From: Levilactobacillus huananensis
Lineage (GTDB): Bacteria; Bacillota; Bacilli; Lactobacillales; Lactobacillaceae
Assembly: GCF_003946145.1 (NCBI RefSeq)
Contig: NZ_RHOC01000003.1
Coordinates: 62,001 to 126,000, forward strand
DNA: 64,000 nucleotides
Direction of reading: 5' to 3'
Shown here: piece by piece, positions 1,582 through 44,653 of the stretch
How positions within the stretch are numbered: position 1 is the stretch's first letter
How the letters are laid out: every line of letters begins with the position of its first letter
Notes under the pieces: model-generated
The model's input: the letters and a program-made list of their open reading frames with translations, nothing else
Databases searched by the model: none
Told to the model about the DNA's origin: nothing
Program-made: the position numbers and the translations under genes

Positions 1582-1703
1582 CGATTAGACTCTGTTAATT
1601 CCCACAACCATTTGACTAGAACTATCATACCAGAGTTTGACCAAACGTCACGTATTATGTCACGGTATTTATGTTGGGGGAAGTACGAGCGACGACCATC
1701 GAC

Positions 1704-1736
1704 TGACCGGTTACGCAGTAAACATGACCGGTTACG
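1704..1736. promoter_or_regulatory. Direct repeats spaced 21 bp upstream of LytTR gene
   Basis: The 12-mer TGACCGGTTACG occurs at 1704-1715 and 1725-1736, exactly two helical turns apart. LytTR regulators bind pairs of short direct repeats with about this spacing, and the pair sits some 65 bases upstream of a LytTR gene. An autoregulatory operator is the simplest reading; binding is inferred. Confidence 0.6.
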
Positions 1737-1799
1737 GTGAACCTATTTTATTTCCACGCATGGTATGGTTTACTAGGATTAACGAAAGGGGGTGTGCAC

Positions 1800-2246
1800 T
1801 TGAAGATTCGTGTTGTGATTGATGATCGACTGAAAGAACCAGAAATTACCATTCGAACACCCGAAGACGTGGATGTTGACCAACTTGTGGCATCCATTCA
1901 AGGGGTTGAAGCCACCGCGGCTCGTATGACCTTCAGTCAGCGTGGCGAGAACTATCAGGTCACCTTGCATGACGTGCTCTTCTTTGAAGCTGCGGATCAC
2001 CAAGTCATGGTTCACACGGCAACCGAGGTTTTCTCAACGCGTCAACGATTATATGAGCTGGAGGAGAACTTACCTGCCAGTTTCCAACGGGTCTCCAAGT
2101 CTGCCATCCTAAACTGTGCTCAGATCTTCTCACTTACGAAGTCCGTCACGGGTAATCTCGTTAAATTTCAAAAATCACACAAGCAGCTCTATGTCTCACG
2201 GCGCTTTTACAAGAGGCTCAAGGAAACATTGGAGCGAAAGGGGTAA
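1800..2246 (+). CDS. LytTR-family DNA-binding regulator
   Basis: The product has 148 residues from a TTG start at 1800, chosen because AAAGGGGG lies 8 bases upstream; a longer ATG-initiated frame from 1737 would lack such a site. The C-terminal two thirds is a LytTR domain, with YQVTLHDVLFFEAADHQV, then FSTRQRLYELEENLP, and FQRVSKSAILN as the recognition segment. There is no receiver domain, so it belongs to the small stand-alone LytTR proteins that are normally encoded with an inhibitory membrane partner. That partner would be the next gene, only 5 bases downstream. Paired direct repeats upstream suggest autoregulation. Confidence 0.9.
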   Translation: MKIRVVIDDRLKEPEITIRTPEDVDVDQLVASIQGVEATAARMTFSQRGENYQVTLHDVLFFEAADHQVMVHTATEVFSTRQRLYELEENLPASFQRVSKSAILNCAQIFSLTKSVTGNLVKFQKSHKQLYVSRRFYKRLKETLERKG

Positions 2247-2251
2247 GTAAG

Positions 2252-2986
2252 ATGCATAGAAATTGGTTTTGGGGAACGTTCTTTGTCTTGGCTGCGGGGA
2301 TCCTTATCGCAAGTCAACTCGGCGTCCTAAGCTATCATATTGGATTTTGGACATTGTTGGTCGCCATGTTCCTAGTGGCAACGTTCGTTGGTAGTTTGAT
2401 TCAAGTTAGTGTAACCGGGATGATCTTCTCACTAGCCTTTCTGGCGATTATCTTCGCAAAGCCATTGGGGATTGTGACCTTGGCTCCCTGGACGATTCTA
2501 GGCGCGGCGCTGTTGTTGTCGATTGGGTTATCAATGATTATCAAACCTCGATGGCGGTGGCATCGTAACGTGACCTTTTGGGAAGGTCATCATGATCATG
2601 GCTGGGATAAGAACTTCCACCATAGCTATGACGACATTAAAACGGTCAATGAGTCTGAAACGATCGTTGACGTGAACATGAGTAGTAGTATTCGCTACCT
2701 GCAGTCAACGGATTTTAAGCAAGCAATGATTAAGGTTTCCATGGGAAATGCAAAAGTTTATTTTGATAACGTGGTCTTGGACGAAGACGGTGCAATCATT
2801 GTCGTTGATGGATCCTTAGGTGGGATTGAATTGTATCTGCCACGGACCTGGAATGTGACATCAAATGTCAATACCAGCCTAGGTGTCGTCACAGAGAAGG
2901 GCATTCAGGAGTCTGTTGAAGAAGGTCCACAGGTGACAATCCAAGGAGATATTTCACTGGGAAACTTAACTATTAGCTACATTTAG
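2252..2986 (+). CDS. LiaF-like membrane protein, LytTR partner
   Basis: The product has 244 residues. The first 100 hold about four hydrophobic segments, followed by a His-rich linker (HHDHGWDKNFHH) and a C-terminal beta-rich domain (about 140-244) of the LiaF/toastrack type, including VDGSLGGIELYLP and GDISLGNLTISYI. LiaF-type proteins are cell-envelope stress sensors or inhibitors. The gene is translated right behind the LytTR gene from a good ribosome site (AAAGGGG), so the two form a bicistronic regulator plus membrane-sensor unit. Whether it sequesters the LytTR protein is inference from related LytTR regulatory systems. A strong terminator follows. Confidence 0.8.
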   Translation: MHRNWFWGTFFVLAAGILIASQLGVLSYHIGFWTLLVAMFLVATFVGSLIQVSVTGMIFSLAFLAIIFAKPLGIVTLAPWTILGAALLLSIGLSMIIKPRWRWHRNVTFWEGHHDHGWDKNFHHSYDDIKTVNESETIVDVNMSSSIRYLQSTDFKQAMIKVSMGNAKVYFDNVVLDEDGAIIVVDGSLGGIELYLPRTWNVTSNVNTSLGVVTEKGIQESVEEGPQVTIQGDISLGNLTISYI

Positions 2987-2992
2987 ACCCGG

Positions 2993-3021
2993 GAGAACAC
3001 GAGCGATCGTGTTCTTTTTTT
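2993..3021 (+). terminator. Terminator of LytTR/LiaF-like operon
   Basis: The inverted repeat AGAACACGA-GCGA-TCGTGTTCT is followed directly by seven T's. Confidence 0.9.
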
Positions 3022-3026
3022 GCAAA

Positions 3027-3056
3027 AGAAAAAGTCCTAGGCAACTGCCTAGGACC
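3027..3056 (-). terminator. Terminator of first tRNA-Arg gene
   Basis: On the minus strand GTCCTAGGCAGTTGCCTAGGAC forms a perfect hairpin followed by a T-rich tail. Confidence 0.85.
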
Positions 3057-3147
3057 AACCATTGGTGATGTTTATGCGCCCGGAGGGAATCGAACCCCCA
3101 TTTCAAGAACCGGAATCTTACGTGCGATCCATTACACTACGGGCGCA
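3034..3147. repeat. 114-bp exact direct repeat, copy 1 (tRNA-Arg unit)
   Basis: This segment carries a tRNA-Arg gene, its 3' flank and its terminator hairpin. It is repeated base for base at 3888-4001. Confidence 0.95.
3076..3146 (-). tRNA. tRNA-Arg (anticodon CCG), copy 1
   Basis: The gene is 71 nt. Acceptor arms GCGCCCG and CGGGCGC pair fully. The anticodon stem TAAGA/TCTTG closes the loop TTCCGGT, giving anticodon CCG for codon CGG. The T arm contains GGTTCGATT. CCA is not encoded. It has its own sigma-A-type promoter and terminator. It is identical to the copy at 3930-4000. Confidence 0.97.
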
Positions 3148-39906: not shown

Positions 39907-40992
39907 ATGGATAATTCATATAAAATTAAGGTTCAAAACGTTACAAAAGAGTATGACCTGTACAAGACCCAATCTGAAAAATTGCGGTCATTCTTTTCCC
40001 TGAGCAATAATAAGGTGCCACATTTCTGGTCCTTGATGGGGATCTCACTTGAGGTTAAGTCCGGTGAAACCTTGGGCTTGATTGGGGTCAACGGTTCCGG
40101 TAAGTCGACATTGTCCAATATCATTTCTGGAATTATTCCACAAACGACGGGGACAGTGGATGTGAGGGGAGATACCTCGATCATCGCCATCGGTGCTGGG
40201 TTGCGGGGCAACCTGACCGGGGTCGAAAATATTCGACTCAAGGCATTGATGCAGGGACTGACTAATCCTCAGATTGATGCCTTAATGGATGACATCGTGG
40301 CCTTTGCGGATATTGGTGATTTCTTATACCAACCCGTTAAGAGCTATTCCTCAGGGATGAAGTCACGGTTGGGATTTGCCATTGCCGTGCACGTTAACCC
40401 AGACATTCTGATTATTGATGAAGCGTTATCCGTTGGGGATGACACCTTCTACCAGAAGTGTGTGGACAAGATTTCTGAATTCAAGGATTTAGGGAAGACC
40501 ATCGTCTTCGTCAGTCACTCCTTGAAGCAAGTTGAAATCTTGTGTGACCGTGTGGCCTGGATTCATTATGGGACACTGAAGGCCATCGGACCCACCGAAG
40601 AGATTGTCCAAGATTACCGTAACTTTACCAAGTGGTTTAAGAAGCAGACTAAGAAGGAAAAGAGACATTTCCAACGGACGATGAAGGAAGGCCAAAAGTC
40701 CTTCGATATCGATGCTTATCAAGCCCAGGTTACCAAAGAACGCCAGGCGGCAGCACCTGACGATCCACATGTTGCCGATCAAGTGAAGAAGGATTTCTAT
40801 GGGTCGGTTATCAGTGAAAAGATGAACTGGCGCAACCGGATTTTGACGGGTGTGGCTGTCGTAGCCTTGCTTTTCGCTTGTGTGGTCAACATTTCGGGGC
40901 ATTCAGTTAGCGACGTGCTCTCAAACCCAGCACATCTTGTGCATCCAGAAACGGTGTTACATGATCCAAATGCGACGAGTAGTGTTAAATAA
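39907..40992 (+). CDS. tagH: Teichoic acid ABC transporter ATP-binding protein TagH
   Basis: The product has 361 residues. It is an ABC ATPase of the polysaccharide-export type: Walker A GVNGSGKST near 60-68, signature YSSGMKSRLGFA near 142, Walker B ILIIDEALSVGD near 163 and the switch His in VFVSHSLKQ. A C-terminal extension carries a single membrane helix (about 303-322) and a short outer segment, as in TagH. TagH with permease TagG flips wall teichoic acid across the membrane. No tagG is adjacent, so the permease must be elsewhere. Confidence 0.9.
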   Translation: MDNSYKIKVQNVTKEYDLYKTQSEKLRSFFSLSNNKVPHFWSLMGISLEVKSGETLGLIGVNGSGKSTLSNIISGIIPQTTGTVDVRGDTSIIAIGAGLRGNLTGVENIRLKALMQGLTNPQIDALMDDIVAFADIGDFLYQPVKSYSSGMKSRLGFAIAVHVNPDILIIDEALSVGDDTFYQKCVDKISEFKDLGKTIVFVSHSLKQVEILCDRVAWIHYGTLKAIGPTEEIVQDYRNFTKWFKKQTKKEKRHFQRTMKEGQKSFDIDAYQAQVTKERQAAAPDDPHVADQVKKDFYGSVISEKMNWRNRILTGVAVVALLFACVVNISGHSVSDVLSNPAHLVHPETVLHDPNATSSVK

Positions 40993-41034: not shown

Positions 41035-41135
41035 AGCGTGGTATCTTTAAGTTACCATTTATTTACCCCTTCATCTGATTTCCCAATGAATCGGATAAAG
41101 GATCTATCTCTCATTTGGTGAAGACTAAATGGCGG

Positions 41136-41170
41136 GGCCGGGAGTGCATGCTTCCCGGTCTCTTTTTTTG
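41136..41170 (+). terminator. Strong terminator ending a structured untranslated stretch
   Basis: GGCCGGGAG pairs with CTTCCCGGTC (one G-U), followed by TCTTTTTTT. The about 100 bases before it can fold (TGGTA/TACCA, ATCTGATT/AATCGGAT, CTTCA/TGAAG) and encode no protein. Confidence 0.8.
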
Positions 41171-41252
41171 TGATTTTTAGCTATGATTAGTTACTCACCA
41201 GCTTCATTTAGAATAATAATGGTCAAAAGTCATAATTATTTCCATGAAAGCA

Positions 41253-41281
41253 TTGACAGCGCTTACAAATACCGGTATATT
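41253..41281 (+). promoter_or_regulatory. Consensus promoter of the CU-rich small RNA
   Basis: -35 TTGACA is a perfect match, followed by 17 bp and -10 TATATT. It drives no protein gene before a terminator. Confidence 0.85.
41254..41267. promoter_or_regulatory. cre site overlapping the small RNA promoter
   Basis: TGACAGCGCTTACA matches the CcpA element at 13 of 14 positions and overlaps the -35 box, the position expected for repression by CcpA. Confidence 0.75.
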
Positions 41282-41287
41282 ATTAGT

Positions 41288-41375
41288 CGTAAGGTATTTA
41301 ATAATTACCTTCTAATCAATTCTCTTTCTCTCTTATGCCGACCACTACCATTCCCTGGTAGTGGTTTTGTTTTGC
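41288..41375 (+). ncRNA. Candidate CcpA-controlled CU-rich small RNA, about 85 nt
   Basis: A consensus promoter starts transcription near 41288. A perfect 10-bp terminator stem (ACCACTACCA/TGGTAGTGGT, 41341-41365) with a T-rich tail ends it near 41375. The RNA has a 5' hairpin (AAGGTA/TACCTT, 41291-41311) and then an unpaired CU-rich stretch containing TTCTCTTTCTCTCTT, complementary to purine-rich ribosome sites. No reading frame of useful length is present. This layout recalls CcpA-repressed CU-rich regulators such as RsaI of staphylococci; homology is not claimed. Confidence 0.65.
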
Positions 41376-41449
41376 CCTAAAAGCTAGTATAATTGGGAAG
41401 ATGGCGTTAGGGGACTATCACCCTAACGTTGACTGAGGAGGCATCTGGG

Positions 41450-41758
41450 ATGAAGAGTCATGAAACATTTACCTTGATTGAAGAAATTACCCGGCTGGAC
41501 GGGAGTAAGTACATGGAAATTAGCAACATGGTCCAGAATGGTCGGGCCGAGCTAGCGGTCGAACGCGGGCTCATCAAACAGGTTCGGATTCTCCAGTTAA
41601 ACATCGCTCATACGCCGCACGTTCAAGCCTATGAGGACTACGTGAACGAGCATTATGCGATGCCAGAGGAGAATTTTACCACCTTTGATGAATGGAAAAA
41701 ACCGGAGGACGTGCAGCAGGAAGTTAATGCCATTCTTCATGAAAATCATATTGGTTAA
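41450..41758 (+). CDS. Conserved-looking small acidic protein of unknown function
   Basis: The product has 102 residues from ATG 41450 behind GAGGAGG. It is soluble and mostly helical, with RLDGSKYMEISNMVQNGRAE and a C-terminal DEWKKPEDVQQEVNAIL. I do not recognise the family. It has no signal peptide or membrane segment. A TATAAT at 41388 and a following terminator make it a single-gene unit. It separates the small RNA from the NEAT cluster. Confidence 0.75.
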   Translation: MKSHETFTLIEEITRLDGSKYMEISNMVQNGRAELAVERGLIKQVRILQLNIAHTPHVQAYEDYVNEHYAMPEENFTTFDEWKKPEDVQQEVNAILHENHIG

Positions 41759-41950: not shown

Positions 41951-42673
41951 ATGATGAAGAAAACAGTGACAGTGTGGGTCGCGGCCCTCATGTTAGCAGG
42001 CGTTGGAACCGGAATCCCCTTAGTCAAGGTTACGGTGCCGGCTGTGGCACAAGCGGCAACGTTGAACGCTGCTAAGTTGCCAAATGGAAAGTATAGTGTT
42101 CCCGTACATATCTACAAAACTGGGACAACGACGGCCTCCGAAGCGGCACAGTACTTTAATTCGAGTGCTAAAGTTTCGGTCAAGAGTAAGCGGGCTACGG
42201 TTTCTTTGACGACAACCAAAGCTGGGAACCAGTTTATCAAGGCCATGACGTTGGATGGTCATACGGCAAAAGTTACCGCGCACAGCACCGGAAATACCTA
42301 TACATTTAGTAAAGTGAACTTAAAGACCGGTCATGCCTTAGGGTTTACCCTCGTCGTGCCTATGAATGGTCAAGAGATGACCATGACGCAATCAGCCAAA
42401 TTAACGTTTAAGACCAGTGCACTTAAGGCAACTACGAAGGTCGTCCTGACGACGTCAAAAGTGAAGGCCAAGGCTAAGAAGGTTACCGGAAAGACCACTA
42501 AAGGCGCCAAGGTGACTGTTAAACATGGTCAGACGACATTGGGTAAAGTAACGAGCAAGAAGGCAGCTTACAAGGTGAAGTTAAAACGAGCCGTGAAGAA
42601 GAATTGGAAGCTGAAAGTTACGGCATCCAAGGCTGGTTACAAGGCCGTTACCCAGACGATTAAAGTGAAGTAG
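41951..42673 (+). CDS. Secreted NEAT-like protein with C-terminal Ig-like domain
   Basis: The product has 240 residues. GGAGG lies 5 bases before ATG 41951 and 8 before ATG 41954, so either may start. A signal peptide (ending AQA near 36) is followed by a NEAT-like domain (about 40-155): LPNGKYSVPVHIYKTG, the lip helix region SEAAQYFN, then strands to VVPMNGQEMTMTQSAKLTF. At the place of the usual heme YxxxY motif it has Met145-xxx-Ala149. An Ig-like basic domain (about 165-240) follows. There is no LPXTG motif, so it may be a secreted or charge-bound carrier. It is first of three NEAT-like genes. Confidence 0.78.
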   Translation: MMKKTVTVWVAALMLAGVGTGIPLVKVTVPAVAQAATLNAAKLPNGKYSVPVHIYKTGTTTASEAAQYFNSSAKVSVKSKRATVSLTTTKAGNQFIKAMTLDGHTAKVTAHSTGNTYTFSKVNLKTGHALGFTLVVPMNGQEMTMTQSAKLTFKTSALKATTKVVLTTSKVKAKAKKVTGKTTKGAKVTVKHGQTTLGKVTSKKAAYKVKLKRAVKKNWKLKVTASKAGYKAVTQTIKVK

Positions 42674-42747
42674 ACATGAACGGCTACCGTGAAACGGTGG
42701 CCGTTTAGCTACCAAGAGCTAACTAACAAAGAATGGAGTGAGTCGAC

Positions 42748-43905
42748 ATGAAAAAAAGTTGGCGAACACTGCTCCTGAGTCTACTGACGGTGAGTTGTGT
42801 CTGGCTATTGACCGGTATCGTTGCCAAGGCGGCCACGATTAAGGATGGTCTCTACCAAGTTCCAGTCAAGATTTTAAAGGCAAAGGAAGAGACGACCTCG
42901 ACGGCTAATCAATTCTTCGGATCCCAGGCCGTGGCTCGAGTCACGGGGGCGCACACGACGTTGCTTCTGACTAGTGATGGTGCCCAGTTTATCTCGGCTA
43001 TGACGGTTGCTCAGCAACCAGCTGTGGTTGTGAAGACGGTTGGCAAACAGGCCCTCTATCAAGTTACCGTCACAGGGCAAAAGAGTCCACTTGCGGCAAG
43101 CTTTAAGTTAACGACTCCGGTTGGGAAGATGACTGAGACTGCCAGAGTTGCGTTGGATTGGGATCAGGCAAAGCCGCTCAACGACAGTACTACTACTACG
43201 GCTCTGTTGGCCGCGGGAACGACAATTGCCCAACAGGCAGCTAAGAAGGCCCCTGTTACCCCGACGACTCCGGCAATAGCTTCGACAAAGACAGTGACCG
43301 CAACACCATCAGTGAAGCAGTACTGGCGTTATCGCGTCCTGCAGGGAGATAAGATGCGGGCATCACAGGCTAACCAGTATTACACCAACGTGGCCACGGT
43401 GACATCAAGCGGAACCGGCTATCGGGTCACACTTAAGGTTCAATACGCGACCTCTCTCAAATTAGGTGCTCACGCGGTGGTACCTGAGAGTATCAACGGT
43501 CAACCGGTTCCTGCCAGTCACGTGACTTATGGCAAATCCGGACAAAATGAAACAATGACTTACTGGTTTGAGATAAGTAAATTGAGTCAGTTGACGGCTA
43601 AATTAATTCCAGGTCAGATTCACGTCACAGTCCCCGCTTTAAATATGAGTCAGGTTTTCCCGGTTCGGTTCCAATTTGCGGCTAGTGGTGCCGCCGATCA
43701 GGCACAGGCAGTTCAGGTAGCGGCTTTGCCAGATAAGACCACGCGAGCAACCCCAACGGCTAACACTAACGCTACAAGCGATCAAACCACACAGAAGTTA
43801 CCGGCCACTGGTGATCAGTCACCCCAGATAGAAGTGCTGATTGGTCTGATCTTACTCAGCCTAAGTCTTATCTGGAGGGGAGGTTGGGATCGTGAACAAC
43901 GTTAA
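42748..43905 (+). CDS. LPXTG-anchored protein with two NEAT-like domains
   Basis: The product has 385 residues, with GGAGTGAG upstream. It has a signal peptide (1-28), a first NEAT-like domain (about 30-138, IKDGLYQVPVKILKA), a Thr/Pro-rich linker, a second NEAT-like domain (about 190-311, ending IHVTVPALNMSQVFPVRFQF), and a sorting signal LPATG at 351-355 with a membrane helix. NEAT domains bind heme in the Isd and Shr systems. Here the axial position reads Met128 in domain 1 and Met300 in domain 2 instead of Tyr. The next gene starts 14 bases before this one ends. Confidence 0.82.
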   Translation: MKKSWRTLLLSLLTVSCVWLLTGIVAKAATIKDGLYQVPVKILKAKEETTSTANQFFGSQAVARVTGAHTTLLLTSDGAQFISAMTVAQQPAVVVKTVGKQALYQVTVTGQKSPLAASFKLTTPVGKMTETARVALDWDQAKPLNDSTTTTALLAAGTTIAQQAAKKAPVTPTTPAIASTKTVTATPSVKQYWRYRVLQGDKMRASQANQYYTNVATVTSSGTGYRVTLKVQYATSLKLGAHAVVPESINGQPVPASHVTYGKSGQNETMTYWFEISKLSQLTAKLIPGQIHVTVPALNMSQVFPVRFQFAASGAADQAQAVQVAALPDKTTRATPTANTNATSDQTTQKLPATGDQSPQIEVLIGLILLSLSLIWRGGWDREQR

Positions 43906-44653
43906 ACGTTGGTTTTTAATCGGCATGTTGATCGTAGCTAGTCTGGGATGCCCAGTGATTGGTCACGCCCAGTCGCTAGACTATACGGCACTGAAGTATG
44001 GGACGTCACAAACCTCAATGGCGGGAAAGTACTTCGTGCATCCTGCCAAGGTCAAGGTCGCCCAGAATGCCTATCAGGTTACAATGGAAATCAAGACGGC
44101 CAAGCATCTGAATAAATGGCCGGTCCGGGTCCTCAAGATAGCTGGTCAGACGCCACAGAACGTCCAAAAATCACGAGACAGTGCGGGAAACTATCTGTTG
44201 TTTTATACATTTACCACGGCACACCTGAATCGCGATGTCACCGCCAAACTGGCGATAAATGTTCTCGGGGTTTACAAGGCCACACATAAGCTAACGTTGG
44301 CCTTCCAGACAGTTAACATGCCGGCATTGTCGCAGGCTAAAGCGTCCACAAGGAGACAAACACCAACAACCCCGACCACGGCAGCTAAGCAGACACAGTC
44401 GTCCACGATAAAGGCATCGTCACAGAAGCCAACGTCAAAGAAACAGGCGGCATCAGCTTCAGCTACCACGGCGTCACCGGCGTCATCTAGCAATTCGCGT
44501 TCTGCGATGTCTTCATCCGTAGCCTCTCAGGAAGCAGATACGGCTGATCAAGTTCCTAAGCAGAGGACCAATTGGATGAGCTTACTGGGTGGTAGTTTAG
44601 CCATTGTTATCGTGGTTATCGGCGGTTCCTGGTGGTATTTTGGTCGACATTAA
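43892..44653 (+). CDS. NEAT-like protein with C-terminal membrane anchor
   Basis: The product has 253 residues from a GTG that overlaps the preceding gene by 14 bases, with GGAGGGGAGG upstream. A signal peptide (ending HAQ near 27) leads to a single NEAT-like domain (about 29-140), a Ser/Thr/Ala-rich stalk (about 145-222), and a membrane helix with a three-residue tail (WYFGRH end). It has no LPXTG. The YxxxY place reads Tyr128-xxx-His132, so a tyrosine ligand is kept. The set of secreted, wall-anchored and membrane-anchored NEAT proteins suggests a relay. No heme ABC permease or sortase is adjacent. Confidence 0.75.
   Translation: MNNVKRWFLIGMLIVASLGCPVIGHAQSLDYTALKYGTSQTSMAGKYFVHPAKVKVAQNAYQVTMEIKTAKHLNKWPVRVLKIAGQTPQNVQKSRDSAGNYLLFYTFTTAHLNRDVTAKLAINVLGVYKATHKLTLAFQTVNMPALSQAKASTRRQTPTTPTTAAKQTQSSTIKASSQKPTSKKQAASASATTASPASSSNSRSAMSSSVASQEADTADQVPKQRTNWMSLLGGSLAIVIVVIGGSWWYFGRH

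Follow-up and report, generated by a model that had tools for sequence, protein, structure and literature searches.

CcpA-repressed small RNAs have been described in two groups of Firmicutes. RsaI (RsaOG) of Staphylococcus aureus is repressed by CcpA, is released under glucose starvation, and pairs with the Shine-Dalgarno sequences of the glcU_2 and fn3K mRNAs (PMC9266662). Two G-rich regions of RsaI bind RsaE (PMC9217828), and the conservation of RsaI extends over Staphylococcus and not to Bacilli (PMC8216469). RosA (S345) of Bacillus subtilis is a CcpA-repressed small RNA tied to carbon metabolism; it acts as a sponge of RoxS and FsrA, is conserved in some Bacilli and has a CcpA site predicted at −1 to +12 (PMC8216469). 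With RsaI and RosA, Firmicutes other than lactobacilli are seen to possess CcpA-repressed sRNAs, each confined to its own group. 6S RNA is a longer structured RNA which binds RNA polymerase. Among lactic acid bacteria, roughly one species in three has a cre (CcpA site) upstream of the 6S RNA promoter (PMC8414754).

The present work concerns a locus in a 64,000-nt stretch of the genome of Levilactobacillus huananensis, referred to below as the window. A preliminary, sequence-only reading had proposed that it includes a CcpA-controlled, CU-rich small RNA resembling RsaI. From sequence analysis we conclude that 41253–41373 is an independent sRNA gene with a predicted RNA of about 85 nt. We estimate a probability of roughly 0.7 that 41289–41373 specifies a trans-acting regulatory sRNA, representing a Lactobacillaceae family not included in Rfam, which would be repressed by CcpA and would block translation at ribosome-binding sites. 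Among the features which define CcpA-repressed regulatory sRNAs in general, the sequence carries its own promoter with a cre, its own terminator and no conserved reading frame. We infer transcription, CcpA repression, pairing, target identity and mechanism from conservation, anatomy and cre sites, all of which are read from sequence.

The proposed likeness to RsaI proved correct for the wiring and the CU-rich tract but not for family membership. As in RsaI, a cre is located in the promoter of the lactobacilli sRNA (at the sequence level, in 112 of the 116 promoters among the matches listed). A pyrimidine-rich region is present and predicted to be unpaired, and the indications of its pairing specificity for ribosome-binding sites are mixed. 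No Rfam match was obtained at the locus, neither in a whole-window scan at gathering cut-offs nor in a scan of 41180–41420 at E≤1. The G-tracts of RsaI are missing: GGGG precedes the terminator in none of the 117 copies among the matches listed. RsaI is conserved in Staphylococcus, and the searches carried out here recovered the lactobacilli sRNA from Lactobacillaceae only. RosA differs in the position of the CcpA site (−1 to +12, as against a cre over the −35 or −10 box) and the exposed part of the lactobacilli RNA is pyrimidine-rich. RosA would trap C-rich sRNAs by a presumed G-rich sponge motif, and the 5′ part of the 117 copies among the matches listed lacks GGGG. The locus has no match to the Rfam 6S models. 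The lactobacilli sRNA would be a third example of this kind, wired in the same way but built differently, and its main target may be another one. None of the titles or abstract openings found in the freely accessible literature describes it, and an earlier RNA-seq listing may exist elsewhere.

Organization and conservation of the locus

The features of the locus and its surroundings are as follows (positions in the window):

41134–41169, plus strand: terminator after the ABC-transporter ATPase gene (39907–40992), which it parts from the sRNA gene
41246–41259, plus strand: another cre-like 14-mer (13/14) that overlaps the main cre and clearly differs from species to species
41253–41258, plus strand: −35 box TTGACA, from a promoter search; TTGACA in 109/116 and TTGACT in 7/116 family promoters among the matches listed
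41254–41267, minus strand: cre (CcpA site) overlapping the −35 box, in agreement with the cre consensus at each of its 11 specified positions
41276–41281, plus strand: −10 box TATATT, 17 nt from the −35 box; a 17-nt spacer in 113/116 promoters among the matches listed
41291–41311, plus strand: 5′ hairpin of the predicted fold, AAGGUA (41291–41296) pairing with UACCUU (41306–41311)
41312–41339, plus strand: pyrimidine-rich tract CUAAUCAAUUCUCUUUCUCUCUUAUGCC, unpaired in the predicted fold, with a core at 41315–41335
41340–41373, plus strand: intrinsic terminator, an 11-pair stem (41340–41366) and a T-rich tail, with compensatory changes in the stem
41388–41393, plus strand: TATAAT, which probably belongs to a separate promoter of the gene downstream
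41450–41758, plus strand: gene of a conserved 102-aa protein, the usual downstream neighbour

The promoter (TTGACA-17-TATATT, 41253–41281) scores 11/12. Four promoter-like sites were detected in 3 kb, compared to 4.0 in shuffled sequences, and this is the only one scoring above 9/12. Transcription is predicted to start near 41288–41289. The predicted 85-nt RNA (41289–41373) is composed of a 6-bp 5′ hairpin, 28 unpaired nucleotides and the terminator, and folds with −21.4 kcal/mol (z −5.3), a stability equalled by none of 200 shuffled sequences. Among the matches listed, the 5′ hairpin has at least five pairs in all 117 copies, a terminator-like stem is present in 109 of 116, and UGCC (TGCC in the DNA) follows the core in 97 of 117. 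The latter motif is missing in the Lentilactobacillus copies examined. The hairpin loop is longer in three Pediococcus copies, and in two of this genus (L110 and L115) the longer loop contains AUCUCCU, a possible second anti-ribosome-binding-site element. In Ligilactobacillus saerimneri (L125), a different and longer hairpin takes the place of the usual one and the core is unchanged.

No conserved reading frame was found at the locus. A 65-aa ORF called mechanically (41183–41380) starts upstream of the sRNA promoter. A coding origin was also considered for the ATG at 41335, within the conserved UAUGCC, and was rejected: it opens a frame of eight codons, which yields 74 different peptides across the loci with ATG at this place. 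The stand-alone promoter-to-terminator unit without reading frame put forward in the sequence-only reading is what we observe, with a promoter of 11/12, an 11-pair terminator and no conserved frame. Its 5′ hairpin and unpaired tract also appear in the predicted fold, although the supposed complementarity to AGGAGG needs qualification: the sequence strictly complementary to the tract is AAGAGAGAAAGAGA, and a plain AGGAGG can be paired only by means of G-U pairs.

By BLAST, the sRNA locus is found in all 35 genomes of the window's genus, with 97% identity to the window across the locus in G020, and in 188 of 397 family genomes. A covariance model built from 24 representatives detects the sRNA in 193 of the 397 at E≤0.01; 186 of these, in 15 of 40 genera, lie below 1e-6, and the seven weak ones are six genomes of genus g18 (1.7e-4 to 4.3e-3) and G193 (1.6e-4). 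A covariance-model search of related genomes and conservation in sister species had been set beforehand as checks of the proposal, with poor conservation counting against it; the 193 family genomes and the 35 genus genomes did not refute it, and conservation of this extent is far more than chance would give. In a covariance scan of 246 genomes of the order, there was no convincing match outside Lactobacillaceae: the seven weak matches in other families (E 0.003–0.065) do not exceed the number expected by chance for 246 genomes at a cut-off of 0.1.

An exact scan of named genomes for the 21-nt core gave at least 119 stretches, including 117 from Lactobacillaceae and two unrelated among the matches listed. 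The genera represented among these listed matches are Levilactobacillus, Lactiplantibacillus, Secundilactobacillus, Furfurilactobacillus, Paucilactobacillus, Limosilactobacillus, Lentilactobacillus, Ligilactobacillus, Liquorilactobacillus, Loigolactobacillus, Latilactobacillus, Dellaglioa, Pediococcus and Periweissella. The unrelated occurrences, in a Poribacteria MAG (L139, without promoter, hairpin or terminator) and in Gelidibacter (L186, where the neighbour gene is missing), were dropped from the counts. In G034 (L077, about 1625–3065) the sRNA gene is interrupted by an insertion sequence with an ISL3-family transposase (NF033550, above cut-off), which parts the promoter and the 5′ hairpin arm from the core and is bordered by an 8-bp target duplication, ATTAATAA. 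Together with the many lineages without the sRNA, this disruption offers ready natural comparisons.

Sequence conservation of the core was assessed on 90 loci which had been retrieved regardless of the core, through BLAST, the covariance model or their genomic place. The CU-rich core is unchanged in 86 and carries one edit in the other four, in a set that is redundant (35 distinct contexts among L001–L087) and favours good matches, so that weaker genera are under-represented. The one-edit cores (L086 and L087 of g14, L287 of G144 in g19 and L308 of g11) represent natural seed variants. The 117 listed copies and most rows of the alignment A1 were picked by their exact core and are therefore unusable as evidence of its invariance. 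A1 omits L052, which is interrupted by an insertion sequence, L066, whose terminator is unclear, and L073, which has masked bases. In this alignment, both sides have changed in 7 of 9 pairs of the terminator stem and 87.7% of the cells are paired. For the structure taken as a whole, covariation scores 0.272, a value reached by none of 500 shuffles, and this count is not to be read as a probability. The 5′ hairpin hardly varies and hence contributes little covariation evidence of its own.

cre sites in the sRNA promoters

The cre which the sequence-only reading had scored at 13/14 is in fact better than claimed. On the minus strand, TGTAAGCGCTGTCA fits the consensus used for scoring, TGWAANCGNTNWCA, at 11 of 11 specified positions. 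Among the matches listed, 116 of the 117 promoters could be scored, L126 being cut off and left out. At least 10 of the 11 specified positions agree in 112 of these 116 listed promoters and all 11 in 100; shuffled promoters have a mean score of 7.2 and on average 0.23 per 100 reach the observed score.

Two locations account for these sites among the matches listed: the cre covers the −35 box in 90 promoters and occupies one fixed spot over the −10 box in 22. The −10 type is found mainly in Limosilactobacillus and Pediococcus, plus two Liquorilactobacillus among the matches listed, and in the 22 promoters concerned the −35 position scores only 3–9 of 11. That a cre is lost at one place and present at the other points to selection for CcpA control of the sRNA promoter. 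This turnover argues strongly, at the level of sequence, for repression by CcpA, and the sRNA gene is very probably CcpA-repressed, in line with the control originally suggested and with the strong cre seen at one of two places in the 112 listed promoters. Since the CcpA site lies on the promoter core, the sRNA gene is expected to be off in the presence of glucose and to come on once the preferred sugar is exhausted. The placement of the cre on −35 or −10 according to lineage, with regulation seemingly kept, illustrates neatly how binding sites turn over in nature.

Four of the 116 promoters among the matches listed are without a strong cre (best score 9): L146 and three Loigolactobacillus copies. 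In the latter (L097, L129 and L178) the RNA is intact and the best cre is 9/11; CcpA control may have been lost there.

Candidate targets and possible modes of action

The overall evidence on targets, obtained by sequence comparison, is mixed. In the window's own genome, the 14-nt sequence perfectly complementary to the tract, AAGAGAGAAAGAGA, does not occur outside the sRNA gene. A wobble-tolerant complement, RRGRGRGRRRGRGR, has two matches there besides the sRNA gene. The first (L207) lies opposite an open frame of 552 codons; the second (L209) coincides with the ribosome-binding site for a protein that has a lectin-like domain (PF18483, E 8e-17, below cut-off). Over the 35 genus genomes RRGRGRGRRRGRGR shows no enrichment, with 75 non-self matches vs 74 for the reversed control, nor does it in a set of 26 genomes from 12 genera that has four genomes in common with the 35 (26 vs 32). 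The fraction of fetched genus matches lying in start regions is likewise a null result (35/61 vs 32/62 for the control, with overlaps merged and poly-G and repeats dropped).

The near-exact complement AAGAGAGRAAGAGRNNNH behaves differently. It gave 22 non-self matches vs 5 control matches in sRNA-bearing genera (one further match, L287, being the sRNA itself) and 10 vs 6 in other genera, and, among the loci fetched, was located just before a start codon in 17 of 20 from sRNA-bearing genera vs 4 of 9 from other genera; several of these matches are orthologues and the counts are therefore not independent. The longest single complementary site precedes an MFS transporter gene (PF07690) in G004 and reads TAAGAGAGAAAGAGAA followed, one base on, by TTGAT. 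In the same genome, AAGAGAGGAAGAGA lies four bases 5′ of the start of a class II fumarase-like gene (assigned by TIGR00979, which scores below cut-off on this truncated stretch). Genes of lectin-like-domain proteins in related species likewise have purine-rich start regions able to pair with the core (L209 and L347, of genomes G000 and G012 respectively, L257/L380 and L312; the domain was tested for L209 and L312 only). Complementary ribosome-binding sites include those of surface genes and of a glycolytic gene, with no general enrichment in the window's genus.

The glycolytic gene is gpmA, the gene for 2,3-bisphosphoglycerate-dependent phosphoglycerate mutase (TIGR01258, 262 bits vs a cut-off of 81.7), orthologues of which recur among the genus matches of both complement patterns. 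In a first set of 30 genomes, the mean duplex energy at the gpmA start region was −17.3 in 23 genomes of sRNA-bearing genera and −11.8 in 7 others. A second set of 60 genomes, which was not used in choosing gpmA, gave −14.9 (32) vs −9.8 (28; p 2e-5), and −14.3 (29) vs −9.8 (28; p 9e-5) without the window's genus; genomes were labelled by genus here, and the best match in genera without the sRNA may be the other paralogue. With both sets reduced to genus means, again without the window's genus, the comparison involves 13 vs 15 means (p 1.6e-4). One gene, L461, was included after the start filter had been relaxed. The background over 665 start regions is −10.5, and gpmA of the other genera is at the same level. 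With shuffled cores the contrast averages −2.8 vs −5.2 observed and is as extreme in 1 of 300, so that composition explains about half of it. The pairing register differs from genus to genus, and pairing is weak in one sRNA-bearing genus, g25. Chosen post hoc and compared among related species, gpmA is on sequence grounds the best-supported candidate target, which amounts to support and not proof.

A possible course of events can be outlined. In the presence of glucose, CcpA bound to the promoter core would keep the sRNA gene silent. Exhaustion of the preferred sugar would lift this repression and the sRNA would be made, exposing the near-invariant CU-rich stretch between the 5′ hairpin and the terminator. 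This stretch would pair with purine-rich ribosome-binding sites and translation would be blocked. As gpmA is the best-supported candidate, the sRNA may slow lower glycolysis; some transport and surface genes might be adjusted at the same time as glucose runs out.

Accounts of catabolite control in lactobacilli usually deal with transcription. We propose tentatively, with the odds somewhat against it, that the sRNA adds to carbon catabolite control a conserved branch acting after transcription. In some fifteen genera, industrial and gut species among them, a CcpA-repressed RNA directed against ribosome-binding sites would, once glucose is exhausted, lower gpmA together with certain genes for transport and surface functions. 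If true, Lactiplantibacillus plantarum, Limosilactobacillus reuteri, Levilactobacillus brevis, Pediococcus acidilactici and their relatives would share a second control layer. Organisms with the sRNA are of great food and health use, and the analogues that we found are in Staphylococcus and Bacillus.

Other modes of action are considered here in falling order of likelihood. One, which we regard as unlikely, is that the CU tract serves as a sponge which titrates purine-rich RNAs or other sRNAs, as RosA does RoxS in B. subtilis. CcpA repression is common to RosA (PMC8216469), a near-invariant seed fits one or a few fixed partners, and complementary start regions are not generally enriched in the genus. 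On the other hand, no fixed, highly complementary partner is seen, given that the perfect complement is absent elsewhere in the window's own genome, and the G-rich motifs by which RsaI binds RsaE are missing in the lactobacilli sRNA.

It is rather improbable that the conserved pyrimidine tract binds a protein instead of RNA. In favour of this, a core of 21 unpaired and nearly unchanging nucleotides exceeds what pairing with an mRNA normally requires, and a conserved small protein is encoded next door. The structure predicted for this 102-aa protein is confident (mean pLDDT 95.4), with no match to PDB folds at E≤0.001 and none to Pfam or NCBIfam at cut-off. The protein was rejected as a partner of the sRNA, being near-universal also where the sRNA is missing and having neither a family nor a fold match. 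Also against protein binding, complementarity in gpmA tracks the presence of the sRNA.

The neighbouring genes

The gene upstream of the sRNA (39907–40992) encodes an ABC-transporter ATPase (PF00005). Downstream, the 102-aa gene lies 3′ of the sRNA in 108 of the 117 loci, within 300 nt in 103, and the fetched stretch ends within 235 nt in the remaining nine (all among the matches listed). This proximity would suit a cis-acting leader or attenuator with a conditional terminator, read-through of which feeds the gene. Several observations make this improbable. A −10-like hexamer, probably the gene's own promoter element, stands between the terminator and the gene start in 58 of 78 testable loci vs 26.1 expected. 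The sRNA and the gene are 505–1225 nt apart in L106, L107, L132, L149 and L178. Two stretches from sRNA-bearing genera hold the core, directly before the 102-aa gene in L309 and about 800 nt from it in L308. The protein is found in 200 of 201 family genomes, whereas 18 of 18 stretches upstream of its gene from genera outside the 15 are without the core within three edits. The presence of the gene in lineages without the sRNA implies that the intergenic site, itself conserved, harbours the sRNA in only a subset of lineages. In addition, it is the unpaired tract which is conserved. We read the sRNA and the 102-aa gene as neighbours with separate promoters, and not as leader and gene.

A conserved DNA element without a functional RNA, such as a site only bound by CcpA or an idle promoter, is very improbable in view of the compensatory changes in the terminator stem, the hairpin kept despite its variable loop, and the location of the most conserved stretch within the part predicted to be transcribed.

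Further downstream of the sRNA locus, the window (41951–44653) carries three consecutive genes with NEAT-type domains (PF05031, above cut-off).
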